Of a stretch of 38,808 bases of DNA, positions 4,405 to 38,808 are shown piece after piece; the first letter of the stretch is position 1; each line of letters begins with the position of its first letter. The position numbers and the translations under genes were made by a program. The notes below the pieces were generated by a model. The model saw only the letters and a list, made by a program, of their open reading frames with translations, was not told the origin of the DNA and did no database searches. Location: the IMG/VR virus record IMGVR_UViG_3300043639_000040, positions 1 to 38,808 of that record. One strand, given 5' to 3'. The DNA is from a virus.

Positions 4405-4416
4405 GACACATCTGAC

Positions 4417-4455
4417 CTATATAGCACATGTGCTATATAGCGTATCTGCTATATA
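4417..4455. promoter_or_regulatory. 24-bp perfect palindrome plus extra half-site at integrase start
   Basis: Bases 4417-4440 are a perfect palindrome with arms CTATATAGCACA and TGTGCTATATAG. A third copy of the half-site, TGCTATATA (4447-4455), runs into the integrase start codon. Protein binding here would block integrase translation initiation or transcription, so it may be an autoregulatory or integrase-binding site. Confidence 0.7.
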
Positions 4456-5594
4456 TGGCAGTCAAAAAGTATTTTGTGAATGGGCCCAAAGACGGCTATC
4501 AGTACGATCGCAAAGAGAATAAGTACTTTTCCTGGGGTTACGATATCTGGATATCAGGTGAACGGATCAGAGAACGCGGATTGCCTACTCGTCAAGCAGC
4601 TGCGGCTGCGATCACACAGCTAAAGCAAAATGCCCGTAACGAACGTTTAGGAATCGTAAGCCCGAAAGACCCGCCGATGCTCATAGAACTATTTCAGCAG
4701 AAGTTAAATGCCATGCCAGTCGGTCCTGAGCGGTCCCGGGCAAAGCGGGTGATGAGCAAATTTCTGGAACCGCTGCCCAATGGTATCAAAGTTACAGAGC
4801 TACGAGCCGTCCATATTCAGGATTACGTTCACGGCCGTGCCGCCGCCGGCGTATCTGCGTCCACCATCCGGCGGGAACTCGTGCCGGTAGTTGCCGCTCT
4901 GAATGCTGCAGGAACATTCTATGAGGCATTGGAATCCTACCGGCCGCCAAAGATCACACGGCCTAAGATCTCAAAAACCCGCAAATCAAAAGTGATCACT
5001 CCGGGCGAACTGGCTGCCATATTAAAATGGCTATTCGATCCTAAAAACGATAAAGGCCGCGGCTTATGTCGACGCGCCGGATTATTCCTACAGTTATGCC
5101 TTTTGACGGCATCGCGGCCTGGTGAAATCGCTCATTTGAAAAAGTCTGACGTCGACCTGAATTCAATGATGCTAAGGATAGAGGGAACCAAGACCCGTTT
5201 TGAGAGTGTCGCCGGGCTCCGGCATTTGAATATCTCACCTGCTATGGAAAAGATCTTGCTCGAGAGAATGGAATTAAGTAACAGTGAATATTTATTTACC
5301 CGGGCCGGAAAGGTGACTGGCAAGATGTACGATGCTTTAAAGGCAGCCTGCGAAGCCAACGGCTATGCTTATGGTAAAAACGAGCCGCATGGGATCACGT
5401 TTAGCAGATCCAGGCATACAGGAATCACCAACATGCTTCGTAGTGGGGTAGATATCCAAACCGTGGGAACGATCGTCGGACATTCGAATTCTACGATGAC
5501 CCTGCACTACGCCCACGGTGATCCTGAAGCTATAAAAAAAGCGATATTTGAGCTAAATAAGCTGTTTAAAGTGCGTGATCTCTTTGATGTTTAG
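4455..5594 (+). CDS. int: Tyrosine-family phage integrase (379 aa)
   Basis: A site-specific recombinase that would integrate and excise the phage. The N-terminal arm-binding-like region includes WGYDIWISGERIRERGLPTR, followed by a SAM-like core-binding domain (about 70-170) and the catalytic domain. Catalytic residues visible: R221 in TASRPGEIAHL, R330 in SRSRHTG, H353 in GHSNSTMT, and the nucleophile Y362 in LHYAHGD. The His normally three residues before the second Arg appears to be Ser327, an oddity also seen in some active relatives. An ATG at 4428 reads through palindromic DNA; ATG 4455 (MAVKKYFVNG) is preferred. The gene is convergent with the lysis genes. Confidence 0.9.
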   Translation: MAVKKYFVNGPKDGYQYDRKENKYFSWGYDIWISGERIRERGLPTRQAAAAAITQLKQNARNERLGIVSPKDPPMLIELFQQKLNAMPVGPERSRAKRVMSKFLEPLPNGIKVTELRAVHIQDYVHGRAAAGVSASTIRRELVPVVAALNAAGTFYEALESYRPPKITRPKISKTRKSKVITPGELAAILKWLFDPKNDKGRGLCRRAGLFLQLCLLTASRPGEIAHLKKSDVDLNSMMLRIEGTKTRFESVAGLRHLNISPAMEKILLERMELSNSEYLFTRAGKVTGKMYDALKAACEANGYAYGKNEPHGITFSRSRHTGITNMLRSGVDIQTVGTIVGHSNSTMTLHYAHGDPEAIKKAIFELNKLFKVRDLFDV

Positions 5595-14596: not shown

Positions 14597-17188
14597 TTAA
14601 GTGTTGGCATCTTGTACTAATTGCCGGACCATGCCGTTCTTACCCATTTCAACTTTGAACATTTGGGCAAACCAATCGGATTTATCTCTGACGGTCAGGA
14701 CCACATGGGTTTGTAAACCGCCCGGGGCATTGCGGCCGACATCCACGGTTTGATCTTCCTGACTCGAATACACTCCACCGTCATTAGACTTACCCTGACC
14801 GGAATTACTTTGACTTCCCGTACTGCCGCCGGCAGTGCCGTAGGCTCCTGATGATTCCTGCTTAAATTTATCGCCTGCTACAAATCGCCCGGCAATGGCC
14901 GCGGCTCCGCCGACGATCCCGTAAATAGCGGCAGCGGTAAAATGGGCTCCGGCAGCCGCTGCATACTTTGGATTACCCGTGAAATACGTTAATGCGAGCA
15001 TGGCAAAGCCTTGGGCGAGCTCCCAGACGGCTTGAACGATCGCCATTTGAGCGACAGACGCGATTATCTCCGCTGCGAATTTTCTAAATGAACCGCCGGC
15101 ACTGCCAAATAGAACGAATGCTTTGACGGCGTTACCAACGCCCTGGGCGATAAGCTGAAACTGGGAACCGATAATATTACCGAGACCTTTTAACGGTTCA
15201 ACCTTTTTCAGCATGTCATCAATCGACGTGCCGAGACCGTTAATTACTCCCGATAAGAAGCCCTTTCCTTCAGTTTCTCCAGGCGTTACGGGAACGGCGT
15301 ATTTGTCCTCGATCTCTTTTTTCTTGTTTTCGAAATCTTCCTGAGTGAGTAGAGCTTTGGCTTTGTAAAGCTTATCGAGTTCGTCTAAAAGCTTTAGCTG
15401 TTCAGTTTTATCCTGTACCTCTTTTTGGATCTTCTCTTTTTCAGCCTGATACTCGGTGTCAAGATCCTCAAGACGGCCATCACGCTGCGCGGTGAAGAGA
15501 ACCACCAAATCGTTATACGCTTCACCGCGCATACGATTTTGCTCATCATTGAACCCCTGCAGGTCCGAGATCTGTTTATCCCAAGATTCTTCAGCTGCTT
15601 TTACGGCGTTATCAGAGATCGTTAATTGGGTTTTTTTAAGATCTAATCCAAGTTTTTGCGAAACCTGTAATCTTTTCTCAGCAGCTTTTTGGTCTGAATC
15701 AACGATCAGTTTATTTGTTTTATCAACCTCGTCGGCGATGAAAGCGTTAAGGGCCCGCACACGCTCCATCTGCTGCTCCGTGGTGAGCTTGTCTTGATTC
15801 TCGGTTTGGGGCCCGGCTGTCTGTCGCTCGAGATCGTTTAGAAGATCATTCGCAACCTGAGTGCCCTCACGGAATTTTGTCAGAGCTTCATCAGCAGCTT
15901 TTACCAGAGCATTATCGTCGCCGGTCTTCTTAAACTCTTCGCGAATACGTTTTAGGGTTTCTTTGTATTCAGCCTCTAATTGCTTGAGTGCGAGTTTTTG
16001 TAGATCTAACTGAGCTTTTAGATCCGCTTCAGCTTGTTTTTCCGCTTCGGACTTTCCTGATTTGGCCTTGCCCCCCTTGCCCGCCGATACATCCGGAGAA
16101 AAACTAGATGTGCTACTGCCACCGGCCTCACCATGTGATTCCTGGGCGTCGTACTGTCGCTTAAACCCTTCACGGGTGATCTTGGCAGCTGCTATTGCAA
16201 GTTCGCTCAGGCCGAACGTAATACCGGCCAGATAGATCCTAAGTGCTTCTGCGTGGTCAGAGATCGTCTTGAACGCTTTGGAGAAAATATCAACCGTGTA
16301 TTCGAGGGTCCGTGCGATCGCAAAACCCCACAGCCGCACTTCATCCTGGTTACGGCCATACCATTCAGACGAGAGCGTAAAAAACTTTGTCAGGACCGGC
16401 ATCAGATCCGATGTAAATGCGACACTGGCCGTCTTTGCCTGAGCGCCTAGCAGCCCAAGGGCATCCCCAAAATCATCACTGGCTTTGATATCTTTTTCAG
16501 TTAATGTGATCCCGAGTCGTTCGGCTTCTTTCTGGGCGGCCGCAAGGTCTCCGCCAAATTGCTTGATGACCGGTATCAGGTCCGCGCCAGCCTTACCAAA
16601 AGCTTTCTGGGCAATAACGATCTGCTCAGTACCGTCTTTAGCGTTAAAAATGGTTTCGGATACCTGAGCAAGAGCCGTATTTAGATCTTTGGAAGTGACC
16701 CCGAGATCTTTTAGAGTTTTTTGAGCTTTCTCATTACCCTCAGCGGCTTGGCCGATCAGTTTGGCAAATTTGGCAGTGCCGCTCGTTACGGTCTCGAGCG
16801 AGCTCCCGGCATTATCCGCGGCAAATTTAAGAGTTGTAAGCGTTGAGGCAGAAAGACCAGTTTTATCTGAGGCGTCCTTTATTTCACTGCCATACTCGGC
16901 GGCTGATTTGGTTAGATTAAATAAGCTGACCGAAAGACTAACAGCGGCAGCGACGGCGGCCACGATCGCAGCAGCGGCGATGGCAACACCACCGGCAAGA
17001 CCAGCGGCAGCACTTTCAGACAACCCCATGCTTTGAGCGAGACCCGCGAAACCGGTTTTGCCTTTGCTGTCGATCGCGTCGACATCGTTGCCAATGGACG
17101 TACGTAGATCGCCGAATGCTTTCTTCGCATCATCCGTGTCGCCTTTTGCTCTGAAGAGTAAACCGATGGAGTCAGAAGTGATTGCCAC
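14597..17188 (-). CDS. Tape measure protein (863 aa)
   Basis: This is the longest gene of the window. It has the usual tape-measure layout: an N-terminal helical region (IGLLFRAKGDTDDAKKAFGD), an Ala-rich hydrophobic stretch about residues 60-95 (SAAAGLAGGVAIAAAAIVAA), long charged helices in the middle (DLKAQLDLQKLALKQLEAEY and similar), and further hydrophobic segments near 690-760 (AVWELAQGFAMLALTYF). It sets tail length; at about 0.15 nm per residue, 863 residues would imply a tail near 130 nm. It is preceded by the tail chaperone with frameshift, as expected. The start lies 87 bp from the palindromic element at 17276-17323. Confidence 0.88.
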   Translation of the reverse strand: MAITSDSIGLLFRAKGDTDDAKKAFGDLRTSIGNDVDAIDSKGKTGFAGLAQSMGLSESAAAGLAGGVAIAAAAIVAAVAAAVSLSVSLFNLTKSAAEYGSEIKDASDKTGLSASTLTTLKFAADNAGSSLETVTSGTAKFAKLIGQAAEGNEKAQKTLKDLGVTSKDLNTALAQVSETIFNAKDGTEQIVIAQKAFGKAGADLIPVIKQFGGDLAAAQKEAERLGITLTEKDIKASDDFGDALGLLGAQAKTASVAFTSDLMPVLTKFFTLSSEWYGRNQDEVRLWGFAIARTLEYTVDIFSKAFKTISDHAEALRIYLAGITFGLSELAIAAAKITREGFKRQYDAQESHGEAGGSSTSSFSPDVSAGKGGKAKSGKSEAEKQAEADLKAQLDLQKLALKQLEAEYKETLKRIREEFKKTGDDNALVKAADEALTKFREGTQVANDLLNDLERQTAGPQTENQDKLTTEQQMERVRALNAFIADEVDKTNKLIVDSDQKAAEKRLQVSQKLGLDLKKTQLTISDNAVKAAEESWDKQISDLQGFNDEQNRMRGEAYNDLVVLFTAQRDGRLEDLDTEYQAEKEKIQKEVQDKTEQLKLLDELDKLYKAKALLTQEDFENKKKEIEDKYAVPVTPGETEGKGFLSGVINGLGTSIDDMLKKVEPLKGLGNIIGSQFQLIAQGVGNAVKAFVLFGSAGGSFRKFAAEIIASVAQMAIVQAVWELAQGFAMLALTYFTGNPKYAAAAGAHFTAAAIYGIVGGAAAIAGRFVAGDKFKQESSGAYGTAGGSTGSQSNSGQGKSNDGGVYSSQEDQTVDVGRNAPGGLQTHVVLTVRDKSDWFAQMFKVEMGKNGMVRQLVQDANT

Positions 17189-17275
17189 TCTCTGAATTTA
17201 GCGAGTTTGCCGGTGTGTTATTTTGTCTGGAATGAGCGGCTGGAAATACGGGTAAAAACAGGGGTGAAAAAGTGC

Positions 17276-17323
17276 AAAGTATAATGGTATAGCCCCTATA
17301 TAGGATATATACCATTATACTTT
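17276..17323 (+). repeat. 48-bp palindromic element, copy 1
   Basis: Perfect 16-bp inverted arms AAAGTATAATGGTATA and TATACCATTATACTTT enclose a 16-bp spacer (gcccctatataggata) that itself holds CCTATATAGG. The same element in reverse orientation is at 35416-35463. A shared word CGGGTAAAAACA lies 15 bp upstream. It is intergenic, between the tail chaperone extension and the tape measure gene. It is unlike a terminator: the stem is AT-rich and has no T-tract. Confidence 0.85.
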
Positions 17324-17385
17324 ACCGTAAGTGCTGTTATTGCAGGGGTTTACAGATTTGCCGAAAATCGCGGTTTTGGGGCTGT

Positions 17386-17715
17386 TTACAGCACGTCATT
17401 TTCGTTAATTTCACCATCAGAATCGTCGTCATTTGATTCGTTTGAGGCCGCTCCAAATAGTTCGGCGACGGCAGATTTAACGGCAAGCTTGAACGACTTC
17501 AACCGCTCCAATTCCCGCTTATTTTCAAACTCAAGCAGTCGCATCGAACACGTCAGATCGAAATCTAACGCAACCATCCGTGACTCTACACCGATCAACT
17601 CAGAGCATCTTATGCCTGCGTCCCGGCCAGCAAGGGCGAGCCACAGCAGGTTAGTATCATTCCGGACGAAAGGTTTCCAGGCTGCCGCCTGACTTACCTC
17701 CTGACAAGACCCAAT
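17386..17715 (-). CDS. Tail chaperone frameshift extension (gpT-like)
   Basis: This reading frame is open from just after a TAA at 17716-17718 and overlaps the end of the gene at 17657-18088. Its only internal starts are a TTG at 17598 and later ATGs. The sequence from LLWLALAGRDAGIRCSELIG through VESRMVALDFDLTCSMRLLE resembles the second domain of siphophage tail chaperones (lambda gpT-like), with a Glu/Asn/Asp-rich tail (NESNDDDSDGEINENDVL). Joined to the upstream gene by a +1 shift (or -2), the fusion would be 233 aa; the length 703 nt leaves remainder 1, which fits. The extension precedes the tape measure gene, the standard position. Confidence 0.7.
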   Translation of the reverse strand: MGSCQEVSQAAAWKPFVRNDTNLLWLALAGRDAGIRCSELIGVESRMVALDFDLTCSMRLLEFENKRELERLKSFKLAVKSAVAELFGAASNESNDDDSDGEINENDVL

Positions 17716-21261: not shown

Positions 21262-23202
21262 CTATTCAGATAATTCTATTCTCCTGGCACCAGTGTTGAG
21301 ATCGACGCTACCGCCGCCCGTATTGATGTTGACCCCGGTACCCCCATGGCTGGATACAGCCATCTTTCCGGTAGACATGTCGATCAACGAAACCCCAGAG
21401 TTAATAGAAAACATTAAAGGCAAATTGACAGGCTCGAATGGCTCAACAATACGAGCTCTGCCCGAGATCGTGCGTACTGCCGGAGCCTCTATTCGTGCTT
21501 GCCCCGCAAGCGTTTGGCTTGACGGAGATGTAATTCTGGCCTTACCGAGAATGGTCCGAACCGTAACGATGGATATCCTGGCTAGACCTGTGATGGTCTG
21601 AGTGAGGGTCTTTTGAATTCGAGATAAACCCAAAAGTGTATGAATTACGGTCTTACGAATACGGGCAACACCAGTGATCGTATTCAGTTTTGCAGCCGTA
21701 ACCCTTGCCAGCCCGGTAATTGTCTTTACAGCCGTACTAAATCCAGCCCCGGCGATATTCGCTACGCCGGAGATAGTACGGTTAGTCGTGACTCGTACAC
21801 GAGCTTTACCGGTAGTCGTTTTGGTAACTGTAACGACTATTCGAGCGAGACCGGCGACGGTACGACTGACGGTTTTCCGAATACGTGCAAGGCCTGTGAT
21901 CGTTGGCGATGCTGTTTTTCGTATGCGTGACGTACCAGTTACGGTCTGAAGGACCGTCTTCTGGACCCGGGCTTTTCCTGCCTGAGTGCGACTGGTAAAA
22001 GCCCTAATATTAGCGAGACCTAAAATAGTCGCGTTGACGGTCTTGCGAATACGGGAAAGACCGGTCTGTACGGCCGCAACTGTAACTCGGACGCGGGATT
22101 TTCCACTCTGGGTGCGAGCCGTCGTCGCTGAAATACGTCCCTTACCAGTTGTGGTTCGAACGATAGTAGCGGTTACACGCGATTTTCCTGTCTGTGTTCG
22201 TTGTGAAAGAACCGCGATCGATGACTTGCCAGTCGTTGTCCGTGTGGTGGTTACCCTAACTCGCCCCTTACCTGTCGTCGTTCGAACAGCCGCAGCGGTC
22301 ACTCTCGATTTGCCGGTGATCGTTGCTGCGACGGTTTTGCGGATACGGGAAAGGCCGGATAGTGTAGCTGAGACTACCTTCCGAATGCGCGACTTACCGG
22401 TAGTAGTTTGGCTGGCAGCCTTTTGGATTCGGGCTTTACCGGTCTGGGTTTTAGTTGCTGGTGAGGTGACCCGGGCCTTACCAGTAGTCGTTTTAGTCGT
22501 GGTGACATTCGAACTTCCTGGTCTAACGGCTACCACGCCCCCGCACCAATCATCACTTGCGGAAATCGTAAAGGTGCTTGTGTTCAACGAACTGACGGTG
22601 CTGTTTGTGCTACATACTCCTAAAGTCGCACCGTTAGATCCGCCCGATACATCGGCGGTGTTATTGCTTGCTAATGGATAAACAGAAATCGTGCGGCTTG
22701 TATCAATTCCAAGAAACGCAAACCATAAGGTATCTTCCGTTGCCCAATTAGCAGGGTCGTGAGCAAGCACAGTGACATCAGGTGTGCCCGACACCCCAAA
22801 CGTGACCTCAAGCGAAAGTCCATTTGCGTCTGCAGCATACGCGCTACTATTGTTGCCGTTACTTCCCGGAAGTGTGCCGCCAAACCAACCGGTGATTCGG
22901 AAAATGCGCCACGCTCCCTGTTCCGACGCATTGACGGTGACATTAAACGTTCCCGTTTCTGAACCAGTGGCGACCTTGGCTAATACGTTTATTGTAACGT
23001 TTGAATTGCTTTCCCAGTACGTTTCAAAACCTGCCGGCACACCTATCGGAACACTTATACTGCCTTGCCCATCCGCCGCAAGAAATCCAAGAATTAAATC
23101 ACCAGCGGCTAGATTAGTCGGGTAAGTCAACGTCCAAGTCGTAGAATTGGTCGTGACAGTACCCGACTTAGTATCGGCTGTTTGAATGGTCGGAAAAGCC
23201 AT
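21262..23202 (-). CDS. Virion-associated protein with 25 tandem 14-residue repeats (646 aa)
   Basis: Residues 1-232 form a beta-rich domain (SGTVTTNSTTWTLTYPTNLA, GDLILGFLAADGQGS, ASDDWCGGVVAVRP) resembling lectin-like or fibre-head sandwich domains of phage proteins. Residues 233-588 hold 25 copies of a 14-residue unit, consensus xxRTxTGKARIRKT with variants TGLSRI and AGLARI. The last 58 residues are Gly/Ser-rich with LPLMFSINSGVSLID and end GARRIELSE. The repeats are basic and predict alternating beta strands. The gene lies within the head-tail structural block, next to the Ig-like protein. A fibre, decoration or side-tail structure is likely. No catalytic motif is visible. Confidence 0.75.
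   Translation of the reverse strand: MAFPTIQTADTKSGTVTTNSTTWTLTYPTNLAAGDLILGFLAADGQGSISVPIGVPAGFETYWESNSNVTINVLAKVATGSETGTFNVTVNASEQGAWRIFRITGWFGGTLPGSNGNNSSAYAADANGLSLEVTFGVSGTPDVTVLAHDPANWATEDTLWFAFLGIDTSRTISVYPLASNNTADVSGGSNGATLGVCSTNSTVSSLNTSTFTISASDDWCGGVVAVRPGSSNVTTTKTTTGKARVTSPATKTQTGKARIQKAASQTTTGKSRIRKVVSATLSGLSRIRKTVAATITGKSRVTAAAVRTTTGKGRVRVTTTRTTTGKSSIAVLSQRTQTGKSRVTATIVRTTTGKGRISATTARTQSGKSRVRVTVAAVQTGLSRIRKTVNATILGLANIRAFTSRTQAGKARVQKTVLQTVTGTSRIRKTASPTITGLARIRKTVSRTVAGLARIVVTVTKTTTGKARVRVTTNRTISGVANIAGAGFSTAVKTITGLARVTAAKLNTITGVARIRKTVIHTLLGLSRIQKTLTQTITGLARISIVTVRTILGKARITSPSSQTLAGQARIEAPAVRTISGRARIVEPFEPVNLPLMFSINSGVSLIDMSTGKMAVSSHGGTGVNINTGGGSVDLNTGARRIELSE
21439..22506 (-). 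repeat. 25 tandem repeats of 42 nt (14 aa)
   Basis: About 1.07 kb of in-frame 42-nt units coding T-x-T/S-G-K/L-A/S-R-I/V with 7 variable residues between. The protein repeat is far better conserved than the DNA, so the array is old and maintained by selection rather than freshly duplicated. Copies 18 and 19 are irregular in length. Confidence 0.85.
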
Positions 23203-24870: not shown

Positions 24871-24917
24871 GGAAAGAAAACCCGCCGATTTGAGCATTGT
24901 TAAGAGGCTTGGCGGGT
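24871..24917 (-). terminator. Terminator-like hairpin
   Basis: On the minus strand ACCCGCC (complement of 24911-24917) pairs with GGCGGGT (complement of 24880-24886), followed by TTTCTTTCC. The loop is 24 nt, large but usable. It sits between the 24977-25387 gene and the 24520-24804 gene. Confidence 0.55.
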
Positions 24918-27935: not shown

Positions 27936-30080
27936 TTAGACTGTAACCAATACATGAATGCACCGGCACCGGTCGCCGCCGTCGCAGTCAGGGTTAGGGG
28001 CAGCCGGTAGATCGGCTTCATCATCCGCGGTTTCGCCGTCGGCATCGCCGCATGGGCCGCACGTATTGGCGTCTAGGACAGCCGAATATTCATAATGGTC
28101 AGCTTTATCAGCGTTGGCTTGCATCTCATCGCTGCGGCCCCGAGAAATAGCAGCATTCACCGAACTACCGGCGATCGGGTCTATGAATTTCTCGCTCTGA
28201 GCATTTAGATTCTCTTTTAGTTTTTCGACGGTGTAATTAAGTAGCAGTTTTAGAGTTAAATATTCGTTTACAGCCCGAACCGTGATCTCGTTGATGATTC
28301 GAGAGATCATTCCGTCGATTAGCTCATCGAGATATTCGAGATAAGAAAGCTCGTTATCATCGGCTTTGATATCAGGAATATTGCAGTCTTTCGCTGCATT
28401 TTGTGCAGCGATCTCCGCCCGAATTTGCATCCGGCCGGCTAAATACGCCGATCTGATAGCCTTGGCAAGCTCTTTTCGGCGTTTTGGGTCTGGGGTAAGG
28501 GTCAACGTATGAGCCGTCTGAGCGGTCAGCTTATCGATCTTTGCAACAGCCTGATCTATCAGATCCAACCGGAACTTTTGCAATATCTTAATTGCCGTTT
28601 CTCTTTGACTTTCGTAATCGGCATTGATCTTTTTGAGATCGATCACCAATTCGACACCACGCGGTTCGCGGCCAAGGGTTAAGCCGTCTAAATCAAAAGT
28701 TTTTTTTTCTGTGTGTTTCGGTAAAGCCTTTGGTGGTGTTGGCTCCGGTAAGGCGTTCGGGTCAGTACCCGCCGGCACTTTCTGCGTGGCCTCTATAGCT
28801 CGATTCTCACCTGATAAAGCCGTAACGTTGATCGGCTGAATATAGTAATCGCCCTCAGGATCTGGCATCATGCCAGTCGCAGTCCGAAACTCGTTTAAGG
28901 TCCATCCGCCGGCTTTGAAGTTGTCCCGGGCCCGTAGGTGCATCTTTTCAACATCTTCCTGCAAAAACGCCACATGCGAGATATCCCAACCAACTCGGAT
29001 AGTTTCAGCTTTGATAGCCTCGATATCTTCAAACTCTGGCAGCACAAACCAGGTGAGCCATTCACGCATAACTGCAAGCTCGCCCGATATCTTGTTGTCC
29101 CAGAAGTTTTGAAGCTCAGCTTTAGCAGTTGCATTAGCCGTCACATGGAGTAAGCCTACATAAGCACCGACCAAATTAGGCGGTACCCCAAATACAGCGC
29201 AGATACGAGATTCGAACCGGCCAGAAAGAGAATCACTGGCGAGCTCGTCTAACTTACTACCGATCTGCTGGAAATCTGCGTTTTGGTCCAAAACGGCTAC
29301 GCCTTTCTGATTAGCACCGCCGCGGGAATACTTTTGTTTCCATTTCGCCTGGAGCTCTTCACGTTTAGTCTCGGTGACATTCGCGTTCAGGATCTTCAGC
29401 ACACCGGACGGTGTACCATCGCTCTCAAAGAAAGCGTCAACATAGTCGGTTAAGCCCAGATCAGAGTTAATAGATTTAAGAGCAGCACTCAACGGAGCAA
29501 AGCCGTTGAATTGGTCTAGCAGGTCTGGCCGCCGGCGAATAAACAGATCTTCAGGCTTGATCTCGATCCGCCGGCCATTCTTGGCTGTGTATTCGTAAAA
29601 AAGTATTTCAGATTGGGTACGATCATACTTTGGCGCGATTCGGTTAGGATTTAGTACCGTCATCGCAACAGGAATGCCAGCTCCTGATCGCTCAATATGA
29701 GCATAGAATCGGCCTAAACCCTGCTCTGACTGGACCATCAACTTGCGAACGTCCCTGCCTGTTTGGTGTTGATTTGGCCGCTTGAAGAGAGCGGGTAACA
29801 GATGTCCGGATTTTGCTTCCCATGCACCTTTAGAGTTCTTGACCTCAACAATGATCTCGGCATCGTTCATCACGTCCGCGATCTTGTTGATACACGCAAA
29901 AACTAACTCGTGAGACCTATAAGCTGTGAACGCAGAGTCTTTATCGTATTTGATGCGGGTATTACGACGGCTTAAACCAAGGATGTCCCAAAAGCCCGTA
30001 TCGGTAAAAGCGACACTCTGCGAGTTTTTCTCTCGAAAGCCCGGGCGAAAATAGTTTGTTATGTTTCCGAACAGGCCCAT
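27936..30080 (-). CDS. Portal protein fused to Mu F-like C-terminal domain (714 aa)
   Basis: Residues 1-420 match HK97-family portals: AYRSHELVFACINKIADVMN, GRFYAHIERSGAGIPVAMTV, EDLFIRRRPDLLDQFNGFAP, SKLDELASDSLSGRFESRIC, AVFGVPPNLVGAYVGLLHVT. After a Pro-rich linker (450-490) the C-terminal 200 residues have the Mu F/SPP1 gp7-type minor capsid motif: Y-S-A-VLDANTCGPCGDADGE, C674/C677, then PNPDCDGGDRCRCIHVL with C705 and C707. In most phages these are separate genes. The start overlaps the TerL stop by one base (TAATG). The portal forms the DNA gateway; the F-like part may help capsid assembly or ejection. Confidence 0.85.
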   Translation of the reverse strand: MGLFGNITNYFRPGFREKNSQSVAFTDTGFWDILGLSRRNTRIKYDKDSAFTAYRSHELVFACINKIADVMNDAEIIVEVKNSKGAWEAKSGHLLPALFKRPNQHQTGRDVRKLMVQSEQGLGRFYAHIERSGAGIPVAMTVLNPNRIAPKYDRTQSEILFYEYTAKNGRRIEIKPEDLFIRRRPDLLDQFNGFAPLSAALKSINSDLGLTDYVDAFFESDGTPSGVLKILNANVTETKREELQAKWKQKYSRGGANQKGVAVLDQNADFQQIGSKLDELASDSLSGRFESRICAVFGVPPNLVGAYVGLLHVTANATAKAELQNFWDNKISGELAVMREWLTWFVLPEFEDIEAIKAETIRVGWDISHVAFLQEDVEKMHLRARDNFKAGGWTLNEFRTATGMMPDPEGDYYIQPINVTALSGENRAIEATQKVPAGTDPNALPEPTPPKALPKHTEKKTFDLDGLTLGREPRGVELVIDLKKINADYESQRETAIKILQKFRLDLIDQAVAKIDKLTAQTAHTLTLTPDPKRRKELAKAIRSAYLAGRMQIRAEIAAQNAAKDCNIPDIKADDNELSYLEYLDELIDGMISRIINEITVRAVNEYLTLKLLLNYTVEKLKENLNAQSEKFIDPIAGSSVNAAISRGRSDEMQANADKADHYEYSAVLDANTCGPCGDADGETADDEADLPAAPNPDCDGGDRCRCIHVLVTV

Positions 30081-33691: not shown

Positions 33692-34264
33692 TTACGCCGT
33701 GATTAGCCGGGTGATGTTGTCTTTCAGATGCCCGAGCTCGCTGACTTTGTTTACAACGGCAATACCGCCGGTTGCGGCTGCCAGGTCTTTTAGAAACTGC
33801 CGCCCGGGCCCGGTCTCATTTCCGACAAAAATAGTGTCGATCTTGCTTTTGAACTTTGATGCGGCGGAAAGGGTCTCTTTATCGTTATCCGGTTCGCCGT
33901 CAGATATCAGCACAAGCCGGATATCGGTGTTATTAGCCATGAGCATCATTCGAAGAGCGGCAACCATATCGGTCATACCGCCCTGCATAATGGGAACACC
34001 TGACGGACAAAAATCGGCTCGATTAGAGAACGCTGCGACGGCAATTTCGCCCGGGTAAGCATTCTGCAACTGCTCAAGCTGCTCACAGGCGGCATCATAT
34101 CGGGACCGGCCGCTGCCAGCATCACCCTGCGTCATTGACCCCGACACGTCGACCATGACGAACGCTTTAACGTTCATAAACCCCATCGCGATCGTGGTGT
34201 CATTTTTACGAGCGACGGCCCCAAGCGATCCCGCTACTATTTGTTGATTTGCATTTTCTCTCAT
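33692..34264 (-). CDS. VWA-domain protein (190 aa)
   Basis: A compact von Willebrand factor A domain with a complete metal-ion-dependent adhesion site: D39-V-S-G-S-M (DVSGSM), T98 in GGMTD, and D122/D126 in SDGEPD. The Rossmann-like strands are visible (VKAFVMVDVSGSM, IAVAAFS, IRLVLISDGEPD, KIDTIFVG, GIAVVNKVSEL). Its start overlaps the small Cys-rich gene (ATGA) and the ACTTGGAGA leader lies 9 nt upstream. VWA proteins usually act with a partner ATPase or bind protein ligands; none is encoded nearby except the J-domain protein. Unusual in a phage early region. Confidence 0.82.
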   Translation of the reverse strand: MRENANQQIVAGSLGAVARKNDTTIAMGFMNVKAFVMVDVSGSMTQGDAGSGRSRYDAACEQLEQLQNAYPGEIAVAAFSNRADFCPSGVPIMQGGMTDMVAALRMMLMANNTDIRLVLISDGEPDNDKETLSAASKFKSKIDTIFVGNETGPGRQFLKDLAAATGGIAVVNKVSELGHLKDNITRLITA

Positions 34265-34461
34265 CTCGAATTCTCCAAGTTTTTGTTTAGTCTCACCTCA
34301 ACCCGTTTAGCGATTTTTGCCATTGCCGTTCGGGTTGCACCGCGATATGGGCCACGCCGGTCGCGTGGCTTTTTCATTACATATGCTCGAGTTTTCTTAA
34401 CCTCATATTTACAACCGGCCGCGAAACCGCAGTTGCAGTTAAGGCACTCGTCATATTTCAT
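34261..34461 (-). CDS. Small Cys-rich basic protein (66 aa)
   Basis: ATG 34461 overlaps the stop of the J-domain gene (ATGA), and its own stop overlaps the VWA gene start (ATGA). The sequence MKYDECLNCNCGFAAGCKYE has four Cys (C-x2-C-x-C-x5-C), then a Lys/Arg-rich tail (TRTAMAKIAKRVEVRLNKN). It links the HARP/J-domain and VWA genes in one translationally coupled unit. Possibly a zinc-binding nucleic-acid or adaptor protein. Confidence 0.6.
   Translation of the reverse strand: MKYDECLNCNCGFAAGCKYEVKKTRAYVMKKPRDRRGPYRGATRTAMAKIAKRVEVRLNKNLENSR
34273..34280 (-). promoter_or_regulatory. ACTTGGAG leader motif before VWA gene
   Basis: ACTTGGAG on the minus strand just upstream of ATG 34264 (GGAG, 9 nt away). 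It lies inside the coding end of the previous gene. Same word as at 701-710, 2418-2425 and 35372-35379. Confidence 0.45.
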
Positions 34462-35348
34462 ACCCACGCCATTCCCCATGTGTCATCGGCCCAGAAACTG
34501 ACCATTATCTGACCGATCTCGTTGGTGATGTCTTCCCAGGCGAGAATTTCTTCAACGACAAGAACCCCAAGCTCGCGTTTTGCCCGGACGGTAAGCATTC
34601 CGCAGCGGAGCATCGGCGTGAAGGATGAGTATTTGGAACGATGGTGATAGCCGCCACGGGCAGTTTTAGCCATCTGCTCAAAAGCGAGACCGGCGTTGTA
34701 TTTAGCCCGGCCCAACTGAGAACTGAGAATGTTGTAGGCGTTTTTGATCGTCTCGAACATTTCCCGAGCGTTCTCTTCACGGCAGATATCCGGATGCCAT
34801 TGCCGGGCGGCCCGCTTATAGGCTTTCTTTATTTCGATGTCGCTTGCCGCCTTATCGACACCCAGAACGCCGTACAGCGTTGCCGGTGAGCTTTGGTCAG
34901 CCTGTTTGAACCATGCCCGTAACACTTTCTCCGGGATCTTGGCGTTCCAGCCGCCGTTAGAATGGACCGACGCAGCTTCATTTTTGCAGTTAGCGACGTA
35001 ATCAGCCTGGAAAGTTATCTTGAACGGTTTAGCATCTTCAGCGATCACCGTGGGCATGGCGACGTCACACGAGTAGCAGCGATCGATGATCTGCTTGAGA
35101 ACGTCGGCATAATCTTTTGAGACCAGCCACGCTTTAGCCGGTCCATCCCATTTTCGAGATGTGGCAGGAACTTCCAATTTAAGCTCCGCGACGAACTGCG
35201 AATTGTACGGCGCGTTGACCTTTAGAGAGCCATTTTCGGCAGTGACGGAAACGCCTTGATTTCGCCATGATGAGCTCTGAGAATTTGCCCTCGAGCAGTT
35301 GAATAATGCCCCTTGAGAACCGGGCGGATATTGTGCAAAAATTGCCAT
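34458..35348 (-). CDS. HARP-like plus J-domain protein (296 aa)
   Basis: The chosen start is ATG 35348 (MAIFAQYPPGSQGA) with gagg 8 nt upstream. Residues 43-90 (VNAPYNSQFVAELKLEVPA with KWDGPAKAWLVSKDY) match the HARP-like pattern: yn-x2-ev-x2-LK and (R)KWDgk-x-aW. HARP domains bind forked or single-stranded DNA. Residues 158-212 are a clear DnaJ domain: TLYGVLGVDKAASDIEIKKA, AYKRAARQWHPDICREENAR with the HPD tripeptide at 175-177, then REMFETIKNAYNILSS. The rest is hydrophilic (EEILAWEDITNEIGQIM). It lies next to the primase-polymerase and is coupled to the small Cys-rich and VWA genes. It may recruit host Hsp70 to replication forks; inference. Confidence 0.75.
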   Translation of the reverse strand: MAIFAQYPPGSQGALFNCSRANSQSSSWRNQGVSVTAENGSLKVNAPYNSQFVAELKLEVPATSRKWDGPAKAWLVSKDYADVLKQIIDRCYSCDVAMPTVIAEDAKPFKITFQADYVANCKNEAASVHSNGGWNAKIPEKVLRAWFKQADQSSPATLYGVLGVDKAASDIEIKKAYKRAARQWHPDICREENAREMFETIKNAYNILSSQLGRAKYNAGLAFEQMAKTARGGYHHRSKYSSFTPMLRCGMLTVRAKRELGVLVVEEILAWEDITNEIGQIMVSFWADDTWGMAWV

Positions 35349-35371
35349 ATTTCTTGCCTCTTTTTCGTTTT

Positions 35372-35379
35372 CTCCAAGT
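35372..35379 (-). promoter_or_regulatory. ACTTGGAG leader motif before HARP/J gene
   Basis: ACTTGGAG on the minus strand, 20+ nt before ATG 35348. Here a separate ribosome binding site (gagg) lies between, so this copy is not needed as the Shine-Dalgarno and may have another role (promoter or leader element). Confidence 0.45.
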
Positions 35380-35415
35380 TTGCGTAAAAGCCCCGTATTT
35401 ACTGGGTTTGGCGGC

Positions 35416-35463
35416 AAAGTATAATGGTATATATCCTATATAGGGGCTATACCTTTATACTTT
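35416..35463 (-). repeat. 48-bp palindromic element, copy 2 (inverted)
   Basis: The same 48-bp element as at 17276-17323, in reverse orientation, with one mismatch in one arm (CCTTTATAC instead of CCATTATAC). The shared word CGGGTAAAAACA recurs on the corresponding side (35466-35477). It is intergenic between the primase-polymerase and the HARP/J-domain gene. Confidence 0.85.
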
Positions 35464-35482
35464 CGTGTTTTTACCCGCCTTT

Positions 35483-37438
35483 TCAGTCATCATCTTTCTC
35501 ATAAAAATTCTTCACCGGCGGAGCATCAGTAGCTTTATTTTTGGGATTCGGTTTACTGCAATAAACCCCATGCCCGGGCCGGTCTAAAAAGCCGTCTTTA
35601 TAGAGTTCGCTTACGGCCTTTTTGATAGCGATCTCGCTGAACTGATCCTCGAAGTGCAAGATCAGTTCACCCATGGTTTTTGTGTCCGGGAACACAACGC
35701 TCTCCATGTACCGGCGAATCGTTTTATACGCCGTCATCTTCACCGGTGGGGCAACGATAGTCGTATGGTGAAACCACCGGTCCGCCTCGAGCCTAAATGT
35801 CTCAGAGTAATTCTGGCCGCCATCCGTCTTTCTTTTTGCACACTCGATATTTACTGGCTCGCCTTTTGAGACGTCGCCAAACATATTGATCACAGTCCGG
35901 GATAGCGACTGCAAAGCTGAAGCTCCGCGGCCTGCATGTACCCCGGCGTGTTCGATCTCATTTTTGGCTTTGCCGTAATGGTGAGCAAACAAAAAAGCAC
36001 AGTTGCCTTTGTAGGCCATTTTTAGAAGAGGCTTGATTATCTTCTTGGTTACTTCGGCATTGCTGTTCTCATCGTTTATGTCGTAGGCAGCAGATACGTT
36101 GTCGACAATGATAAATTCCACGCCATTTTGCAGAATTAGAGCATTAGCCCATGTTTCGTGCCGATTAAACTGAAAAAGTTCCCCATCCATAAGCCCTTTC
36201 GGAATAATGATCAGGTTGGTGTTTAGGGCCTTGGTTTCTGTATCTGTAAAAACCTCATCCATTAACCGGAGATCTCTTTGCACGTCCTGAGCGTCATTCT
36301 CGAAATCGAAGTAGGCTATCTTGATCGGTCTCTGCCCGTCATAAAACGGCATGAACGGACGACCGGCCGCCATACAAAGAGTGACGTTGCGCAATAAAGT
36401 AGTTTTGCCGGTATTGGTAGCCGCCTGGATGATCGCTATATCGCGTTTGCCGATGTGAAACGCTAAGATCTCTTTTGGTTCGAAATCGATCTTTCTAAAA
36501 TCGCCATATAAATGCGGTTCTAAGGTGTTCTCATAGTCAGGGTCAGGACTGTTCGGGTCCTTGTCACTTACTTGCCCCAATGCGTCCTGCGGCTTATAAC
36601 GGCCCACGCTGCGAGCGATGGTGTGAAGCTCTTTGTCGTCTACGGGCGGTTTGCAAATACGTTGATTTTCAACGGCAAGAGCGGCATAAATAGCTGCCTC
36701 GCTTAACCCCTTCGAACGCAAGGCCCCGGCAATTTTCGTTAGCTCAACATTTCTCTGGCCTTGATTTATCGAGTCCGGCAGGATCACGCCCGGAGCATTA
36801 GCCGGTACCACGAACGGCGATGAGCCATTACCGTTGCCATTTGTCGCCGGCAGCGGCATGACCAGCTTGTCTATCCACTGCTGAGGCAGATCGAGAATGA
36901 TATCGTTATCCGGATTTAAGAGCTCATAGTTTCGGCCGGAGACGTGCTTGCTTGGCGGAGCGATCACATAACCACCGTCGCCCCGTACATCGATAAATTT
37001 GCCAAGCCGAGACGCAGAGTTTTTTATAATCACACCCGCCGGCAGTTTGTAGTAGAAATGCAGCCCGGCCCCGGTTTTAACTTTTGGCGTGTTAAAAACC
37101 GTATGATCTAAACCGGATATAAGCAGGTCCTTAAGATCCGCACCTTTATCCGTATCGATATCGACCACGACCAATTGCGAGATCTGCCCGGTTGCGATGC
37201 CGATATTTGACGGTTCGGTCGCCGGATCGAACCACGCGGACACCAATCCCGCATCTACCGATGCGTCTAAAGACCCTTTTTGAGTTCGCGGGTGCTTGCC
37301 TTCGGATTTACAGTCAGGCTTACCGCACGTACAAAAACCGTCGGCAGCGATGGAATGGCACGGAAACACGGCCCAACCGAATTCGGTGGCGTAGTTCAGG
37401 GCGTAATCAAGAATTGAAGGGGCGGCAACGTCTTGCAT
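35483..37438 (-). CDS. Primase-polymerase / RepA-type helicase fusion (651 aa)
   Basis: N-terminal prim-pol (AEP) domain: FGWAVFPCHS, the Cys cluster CTCGKPDC, GKHPRTQKGSLDAS, IGIATGQISQLVVVDIDTD with catalytic D93 and D95, KTGAGLHFYY and VRGDGGYVIAPPS. A helicase-like ATPase domain follows: Walker A QAATNTGKTT (residues 338-347), IAYFDFENDAQDV, Walker B VEFIIVDNVSA, and AHHYGKAKNEIEH, as in RepA/DnaB-type AAA proteins. A winged-helix end (MGELILHFEDQFSEIAIKKA) may bind DNA. This is the central replication protein, next to the SSB gene. The leader to the SSB gene holds a strong hairpin. ATG 37438 lacks a clear ribosome binding site. Confidence 0.88.
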   Translation of the reverse strand: MQDVAAPSILDYALNYATEFGWAVFPCHSIAADGFCTCGKPDCKSEGKHPRTQKGSLDASVDAGLVSAWFDPATEPSNIGIATGQISQLVVVDIDTDKGADLKDLLISGLDHTVFNTPKVKTGAGLHFYYKLPAGVIIKNSASRLGKFIDVRGDGGYVIAPPSKHVSGRNYELLNPDNDIILDLPQQWIDKLVMPLPATNGNGNGSSPFVVPANAPGVILPDSINQGQRNVELTKIAGALRSKGLSEAAIYAALAVENQRICKPPVDDKELHTIARSVGRYKPQDALGQVSDKDPNSPDPDYENTLEPHLYGDFRKIDFEPKEILAFHIGKRDIAIIQAATNTGKTTLLRNVTLCMAAGRPFMPFYDGQRPIKIAYFDFENDAQDVQRDLRLMDEVFTDTETKALNTNLIIIPKGLMDGELFQFNRHETWANALILQNGVEFIIVDNVSAAYDINDENSNAEVTKKIIKPLLKMAYKGNCAFLFAHHYGKAKNEIEHAGVHAGRGASALQSLSRTVINMFGDVSKGEPVNIECAKRKTDGGQNYSETFRLEADRWFHHTTIVAPPVKMTAYKTIRRYMESVVFPDTKTMGELILHFEDQFSEIAIKKAVSELYKDGFLDRPGHGVYCSKPNPKNKATDAPPVKNFYEKDDD

Positions 37439-38392: not shown

Positions 38393-38808
38393 TTATCTTT
38401 CAACCTCAATAAATTCACCATCAGAATTGACGGAATACCACGTATCGGCAGTTAGGCCTTCGCCCTCGTAACCGACGGCAATCCGCTTACGCCCGGCGGC
38501 ATCTTCATAAGTCAGGGCGATCGCTCCATTGATACCAACCTTGGCTTTACCATTTAGGCCGGCATTGGCGATGACGGAATCCTTACCCGACGAGCCGATC
38601 TTGGCGTTGTAACCCGACGAGCCGATCTGGGCGTATTCACCCGACGAGCCGATCTGGGCGTATTCACCCGACGAGCCGATCTGGGCGTATTCACCCGACG
38701 AGCCGATCTGGGCGTTGTTACCCGACGAGCCGATCTGGGCGTTGTTACCCGACGAGCCGATCTTGGCGTTGTAACCCGACGAGCCGATCTGGGCGTTGTT
38801 ACCCGACG
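38393..38808 (-). CDS. Phage repeat protein, C-terminal part (continues from window start)
   Basis: The frame runs in from the window end through nine 27-bp units (IGSSG repeats) and then reads KDSVIANAGLNGKAKVGING, AIALTYEDAAGRKRIAVGYE and TADTWYSVNSDGEFIEVER, ending at TAA 38393. The C-terminus (T-x-W-Y-x2-NxDGEFxEV) resembles, from memory, the C-terminal domain of the same phage repeat family. Together with 1-689 it gives one protein of about 370 residues with about 16 repeats. Direct joining of the two ends leaves the array 2 nt short at the junction, so the exact repeat number is unknown. Confidence 0.8.
   Translation of the reverse strand, partial: SGNNAQIGSSGYNAKIGSSGNNAQIGSSGNNAQIGSSGEYAQIGSSGEYAQIGSSGEYAQIGSSGYNAKIGSSGKDSVIANAGLNGKAKVGINGAIALTYEDAAGRKRIAVGYEGEGLTADTWYSVNSDGEFIEVER
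38586..38808. repeat. 27-bp tandem direct repeat array, right part
   Basis: Nine units, cccgacgag at 38586, 38613, 38640, 38667, 38694, 38721, 38748, 38775 and 38802 (truncated). A third variant codes EYAQ (gcgtattcac, three units). The strict 27-bp phase continues to the last base. Confidence 0.95.

Follow-up and report, generated by a model that had tools for sequence, protein, structure and literature searches.

What is the role of two nearly identical palindromes that lie 18 kb apart in a phage genome, in opposite orientation, one next to the replication gene and the other among the tail genes? We addressed this question in a virus record of 38,808 bp, here called the window (the whole stretch of DNA analysed), whose gene content (integrase, CI-like regulator, TerS, TerL, portal, protease, capsid, tape measure and a prim-pol replication protein) is that of a temperate tailed phage. 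The record carries 27-bp tandem repeats at both ends (1-283 and 38497-38808), as if a circular genome had been cut inside a repetitive gene.

An inverted pair of 48-bp palindromes

Element A (17276-17323, + strand) is located between a tail gene (17386-17598) and the tape-measure gene downstream of it (14597-17188, - strand), while element B (35416-35463, - strand) lies 19 bp past the stop codon of the prim-pol gene (35483-37438, - strand), which encodes a 651-aa protein with Prim-Pol (PF09250), PriCT_1 and AAA_25 domains. This setting agrees with the first-pass annotation, which placed one copy beside the prim-pol gene and the other beside the tape-measure gene. Downstream of element B is a gene for a DnaJ-domain protein (34458-35417, - strand), the in-frame start of which is probably further in. 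The DnaJ-domain and VWA-like proteins (33692-35417) stay near prim-pol, as they do in the distant phage MW202444.1.

On the + strand, element A reads AAAGTATA ATGGTATA, centre GCCCCTATATAGGATA, TATACCAT TATACTTT, and element B reads AAAGTATA ATGGTATA, centre TATCCTATATAGGGGC, TATACCTT TATACTTT. Compared as reverse complements, the two copies are identical at 47 of 48 positions and differ solely in an arm, confirming the pair, its orientation and its location as first annotated. With 16-bp arms around a 16-bp centre, 16 of 16 arm positions pair in A and 15 of 16 in B; these are the two best places in the window under a 16-16-16 palindrome model, the next best pairing 13, and none of 200 dinucleotide shuffles of the window reached 15 (maximum 14). 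Because the central 16 bp are not symmetric, the term "opposite orientation" is meaningful, and indeed B carries its centre, flank and tail in the inverse orientation of A. The flanking sequence that had been noted as shared is CGGGTAAAAACA, which lies 15 bp from palindrome A (17249-17260, +) and 2 bp from palindrome B (35466-35477, -, reversed).

Each palindrome is followed by an asymmetric conserved tail, at 17324-17353 (+) for A, a unit that reads on the + strand against the gene direction, and at 35387-35415 (-) for B, which reads in the gene direction. An intrinsic terminator, with a GC-rich stem followed by a T run, was rejected, as it had been in the first-pass annotation: the arms are AT-rich and the end has only TTT. 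A further palindrome with copies of CTATATAG overlaps the start of the integrase gene (4411-4460) and is absent at the same place in one relative, G001. Elsewhere in the window, an abiF RNA was recognized at 24880-24916 (-) (Rfam RF03085, 62.9 bits versus a gathering score of 37); since a Pfam scan of the four ORFs near it found no family above the cut-off, no Abi_2-type protein was recognized there.

A conserved architecture in related phages

The rare group of phages considered here comprises seven contigs, several of them fragments: the window (G000), G001 (3300023267_000006), G002 (3300045926_000231), G003 (IMGVR_UViG_3300009553_000010), G005 (3300026306_000006), G006 (3300006791_000007) and G007 (3300003322_000675), with G002, G005 and G006 among the fragments. 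The element is present in all seven, with 12 units of palindrome plus tail in six contigs and two palindromes without a matching tail. Thus, the element passes the test of conservation in a second genome by which a phage function was to be judged, and the element family is real and conserved across the phage group. A profile built from the 12 units matches the window at 17270-17353 (+, E 1e-16) and 35468-35387 (-, E 1e-18), A and B themselves being among the training units, all 12 of which it re-finds by construction; outside the training set it matches, in the palindrome only, the G005 copy and, partially, element 4 of G007.

Comparison of these copies revealed that each 16-bp arm consists of two tandem 8-mers, giving the element a layout of 8+8+16+8+8. 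Among 12 palindromes, with the degenerate second copy in G003 (G003B) and the G005 copy of other length excluded, agreement between neighbouring words is 0.89 at lag 8, whereas lags 4-7 and 9-11 give 0.12-0.44. Most centres measure 16 bp, and many of them contain CTATATAG or CTATAG; the centre is CTATATAG in the window, in G006 it is 14 bp as judged by its words, and G005 differs. An AT-rich tail of ~30 bp, with a consensus of about GCCGcAA-N8-TAAAATCAACAACTTTAC, belongs to the element on one side only, and the AT content of the units is 0.62-0.65 versus 0.505 for the window. The first-pass description of 16-bp arms around a core was right as far as it went; it missed the tandem 8-mers, the AT-rich tail and the conservation in relatives.

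The words differ by genome (AAAGTATA, AAAGTGTA, AAAAGGTA, GTCCTGTA) while the architecture is constant: each arm of G003 carries AAAAGGTA twice, G002 uses GTCCTGTA, and G007 and G006 use AAAGTGTA, with one G007 palindrome built on other words, AAAGTAGC. Across these word types 14-16 of 16 arm positions pair, so that the structure, and not the sequence of the stem, is conserved.

Orientation of the units

With the tail as reference, we assigned the orientation of each unit by eye from its flanks. Both G003 units, the single G002 unit, element B of the window, its counterpart G001B, and elements 1 and 2 of both G006 and G007 read with the genes, while element A of the window, its counterpart G001A and element 3 of G007 read against them. 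Hence, opposite-facing units occur within G000, G001 and G007. Because G000 and G001 are orthologous, such pairs arose independently in two lineages at most, and because the two G003 units face the same way, a rule of one unit per strand fails in that genome.

The centres of elements 1 and 2 of G007 are exact reverse complements (16/16) while their right flanks align in the same direction, indicating that the centre can flip within its arms. This exact inversion of a 16-bp centre between neighbouring copies, together with symmetric arms around a polar centre resembling recombinase sites, would suit the proposal, raised in the first-pass annotation, that site-specific recombination between A and B inverts the 18-kb segment that they enclose; an attachment or telomere-resolution site is a related reading. 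However, G001 is colinear with the window and keeps both copies at the same junctions, the preserved flanks in G007 are what slipped replication at a palindrome would leave, and the only recombinase found, a tyrosine integrase, is encoded at least some 12 kb away from each of the copies. We therefore regard this explanation as highly improbable. The same holds for an RNA hairpin in leaders that controls processing, stability or translation: a transcript would fold into a 16-bp stem ahead of the ribosome-binding site, but such a stem needs no tandem 8-mers inside its arms, the arm mismatches include both wobble-compatible and incompatible ones, and the units face either way, making this role very unlikely.

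Genomic positions of the copies

The interval between the prim-pol and DnaJ genes holds the element in four of the five contigs in which it is visible, namely G000, G001, G006 (two copies) and G007 (two copies), with small ORFs intervening between prim-pol and the element in G001 and G006; in G003 the prim-pol gene is present and this interval has no element, while the G002 and G005 contigs end short of it. The junction that separates the small tail gene from the tape-measure gene carries the element in G000, G001, G005 and G003, where it was placed by its position directly before the tape measure, the G003 junction being unscored in the junction comparison. At this shared junction G000, G001 and G003 have palindrome plus tail and G005 the palindrome alone, with differing words. 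In addition, G007 has two copies after the tape measure, G002 one at another tail junction, and G003 its degenerate copy between the protease and portal genes.

Several of these positions would suit a dispersed regulatory cassette: a phage regulator would bind the four 8-bp boxes and thereby govern a promoter, situated in the centre or tail, ahead of the DnaJ, tape-measure and small genes. Both copies in G000 and in G001, and in G006 and G007 the unit closest to the DnaJ gene, precede a start codon by roughly 45-90 nt, and the word changes between genomes resemble operator specificities. Arrays of 8-bp boxes are, moreover, typical of ribbon-helix-helix repressors such as MetJ. Against this idea, units face either way relative to the gene they precede, no ribbon-helix-helix family was found among ten proteins scanned, mostly small, and the repeats that belong to the CI-like gene, AACAT..ATGTTAGG, are different ones. 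On balance, we consider a regulatory cassette unlikely. The operator-like AACAT..ATGTTAGG repeats surround the CI-like gene at 2505-2873 of the window and occur in G003 at 22091-22109 and 28076-28094. The motif also precedes a small ORF between the prim-pol and DnaJ genes of G003, which may be a prophage-regulated extra gene.

Searches outside the phage group

Two junctions indicate that the element is gained or lost, because their element-free gaps are at most 8 bp: p19730-p19218 spans 162 bp with the element in G002 versus -4 to 7 bp in five other contigs, and TMP-p13550 spans 276 bp in G007 versus 3-8 bp in four others. Such expanded junctions, the tails that travel with the palindrome, and the small extra ORFs flanked by two units in both G007 and G006 are what might be expected if the element were mobile, either as an intergenic palindrome or as a recombination cassette, and moved from one gene junction to another with small genes as cargo; the promoter-stem-loop cassettes of T4-like phages offer a comparison. 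Arguing against mobility of this kind, the element stays at one junction in G000, G001, G003 and, as a palindrome alone, G005 while its words differ, and we found no copy outside the group.

Specifically, the profile found no element in 50 other loci, and BLAST of the element against phage records, a check proposed for the 48-mer in the first-pass annotation, returned no match. The exact 16-mer arm had 46 matches in viral contigs; beyond the window's own loci, a loose palindrome flag picked out L006 and L020 alone, and both lack the architecture. Looser patterns in viral contigs gave group members, unrelated palindromes and background: TA..TA..CTATATAG..TA..TA matched 33 stretches, with four true elements (two of G001, and those of G002 and G003) and 28 background stretches; GTRTA matched eight, representing G007 (one), a single unrelated palindrome (five) and background (two); and AAAGT matched G007 only. 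One high-scoring stretch with the TA/CTATATAG pattern, L071, was discarded as AT-rich low complexity. The element was absent from distant TerL relatives and from L102, a locus reached through the major tail protein. On the host side, a search of 400 genomes from the phylum to which a TerL-bearing genome belongs gave no full-length prim-pol relative and three partial ones (42-47 percent). The suggestion that the palindrome is mobile and derived from the host thus gained no support from viral contigs, host genomes being weakly covered, and we consider a mobile palindrome to be quite unlikely.

A strict scan for inverted tandem-word arrays covered 604,015 bases of 49 control loci and ten other prim-pol records; because the words of the window and G001 differ at 1-3 of 8 positions, these two fall below its tandem threshold. 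Four control loci (L109, L132, L143 and L146) and one prim-pol record (L166, a prim-pol plasmid) gave hits. L143 has a DUF927/Cch-HTH gene as neighbour and L146 DUF3854 and ParB genes, while L109 is chromosomal, next to gyrB, and L132 is A-rich. These hits weakly support a tie of such arrays to replication genes. The arrays in the distant phages L146 (4440-4600) and L143 (1005-1103) have a 9-bp spacing, one lying 47 bp after the DUF927/Cch-HTH gene and one beside the DUF3854 and ParB genes.

A candidate replication-initiation site

Altogether, the reading best supported by the architecture, the prim-pol neighbourhood and the parallels in other prim-pol replicons is that each element is a compact replication-initiation site, an origin or a priming site, of the phage prim-pol/helicase, present in several copies; judging from these sequence features, we consider this probable. 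Among the four candidates listed in the first-pass annotation, the replication site is hence the one that stands best, while inversion and a host mobile palindrome found no support.

Prim-pol itself is the binder that we infer for the 8-mers. Its C-terminus was modelled as three helices (pLDDT about 76-86 in the core), a weak model that is helix-turn-helix-like; the closest PDB structure was a winged helix (E 1.1), a likeness that is suggestive only. A model of the full protein was unusable (mean pLDDT 39), and a sequence search found no solved relative. In our model, prim-pol subunits would use a DNA-binding C-terminus to occupy the four words in two sets that face each other; the AT-rich centre or tail would then melt or form an extruded hairpin, after which the helicase would load and prim-pol would synthesize the first primer. 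The other copy, facing the opposite way at a distance of about half a genome, might start the other strand or serve as an auxiliary origin. We propose that words differ between genomes because protein and site co-evolve.

Against the origin reading stand a GC skew that changes sign at neither A nor B, the check that the first-pass annotation had suggested for replication sites, the lack of an element by prim-pol in G003, and the lack of a close 3' palindrome in six of seven other prim-pol records. The G007 copy with the foreign words AAAGTAGC is hard to explain with one binder, and a mobile element would equally account for the copies among tail genes and for their gain at junctions that span at most 8 bp in relatives. 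Positions upstream of genes fit a regulator site, and we regard both the regulatory and the mobile reading as serious rivals. An origin that moves and is present in several copies would be consistent with all observations, as would mixtures of these explanations.

Comparison with known prim-pol and iteron origins

The closest parallels come from prim-pol replicons with a stem-loop. In pRN1, PMC4234260 describes a stem-loop 3' of the prim-pol gene that is needed for replication besides the replication operon and its promoter, that functions when moved, and whose shape rather than sequence is conserved; there the plasmid is said to be without iteron structure. Structure kept while sequence changes is also what we observe, and we count this agreement with the pRN1 origin in favour of an origin. 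In each arm of the pRN1 origin stem (NC_001771.1, about 5084-5183), TGTCCA occurs twice at a 9-bp spacing, which 29 of 5000 shuffled arms equalled. The longest lagged repeats of pHEN7 and pRN2 likewise have a lag of 9 but are not significant alone (793 and 1112 of 5000, respectively), while pDL10 and pIT3 have no tandem words and pIT3 has no comparable stem. The Bordetella phage BIP-1 has TTGCCTCGT twice per arm (1/5000 shuffles) around a 60-nt centre, in a palindrome about 470 bp 3' of the published end of the replication gene that may or may not be the stem-loop in Figure 6 of PMC4234260. Among seven other prim-pol records, six have no comparable palindrome within 600 bp 3' of the gene; the seventh, a Thermaerobacter plasmid whose primase shares the Prim-Pol and PriCT_1 domains, has an array upstream (5') of the gene, with three GTGAAC words (GTGAACGAT) per arm around CTATATATAG (0/5000 shuffles). 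The phage elements resemble pRN1 and BIP-1 in having inverted arms beside a prim-pol gene, a structure kept without its sequence, and movability. They differ from them in that theirs is a single-copy stem-loop that spans about 100 nt, has a centre of 58-60 nt and a lag of 9 bp, and goes with an SF3 helicase. The helicase domain of the phage prim-pol is AAA_25 and not of the SF3/D5 type of pRN1.

A second parallel is with iteron origins. According to PMC6092414, PICI origins lie 3' of the initiator and always have two sets of iterons, one on either side of an AT-rich region; SaPI Rep binds iterons through its C-terminus (PMC7581432). With these origins the elements studied here share two sets of short words (2+2, lag 8) that flank an AT-rich stretch, an adjacent primase/helicase initiator, and words that vary by element. 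In contrast to PICI and SaPI origins, they hold only 2+2 words in 48 bp, occur in several copies, one of them far from the initiator among tail genes, and have no constant position 3' of the initiator (B lies immediately 3' of prim-pol, A at the other end of the 18-kb interval); nor is the carrier a satellite island, being a full phage from TerS to tape measure. In phage P4, the initiator uses its C-terminal winged helix to bind ori1 and crr, which lie far apart and contain the same short words. A and B are alike as distant paired sites with the same short words, a likeness drawn from descriptions rather than sequences.

Specific primase start sites, one per strand, are also known: PMC7102993 and PMC4434180 describe one 8-nt recognition site per strand for the NrS-1 prim-pol and one ssi site per strand (ssiA/ssiB) in RSF1010, respectively. 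As described there, the NrS-1 site is a single 8-nt word and the RSF1010 ssi sites are 40-nt hairpins near one origin, both unlike the elements here. Cluster K mycobacteriophages have start-associated inverted repeats dispersed in the phage genome; the dispersal is alike, and by description the words and the host are unrelated.

We speculate, as a possibility well short of probable, that the elements are a small set of movable 48-bp origins, each with 2+2 inverted words read by prim-pol, with copies gained at junctions, all words rewritten together as initiator specificity changes, and opposite copies half a genome apart starting the strands separately. More widely, the "stem-loop" origins of pRN1 and BIP-1 and the "iteron" origins of PICI and P4 would then be one design, because the pRN1 and BIP-1 stems are themselves made of tandem words. 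If this is true, the elements would represent a minimal, portable origin for prim-pol replicons and a natural series of initiator-word pairs for testing specificity switching; the phage would have at least two such origins, one of them hidden within its late genes; and pRN1-like stems would keep their shape and not their sequence because they are inverted tandem words.
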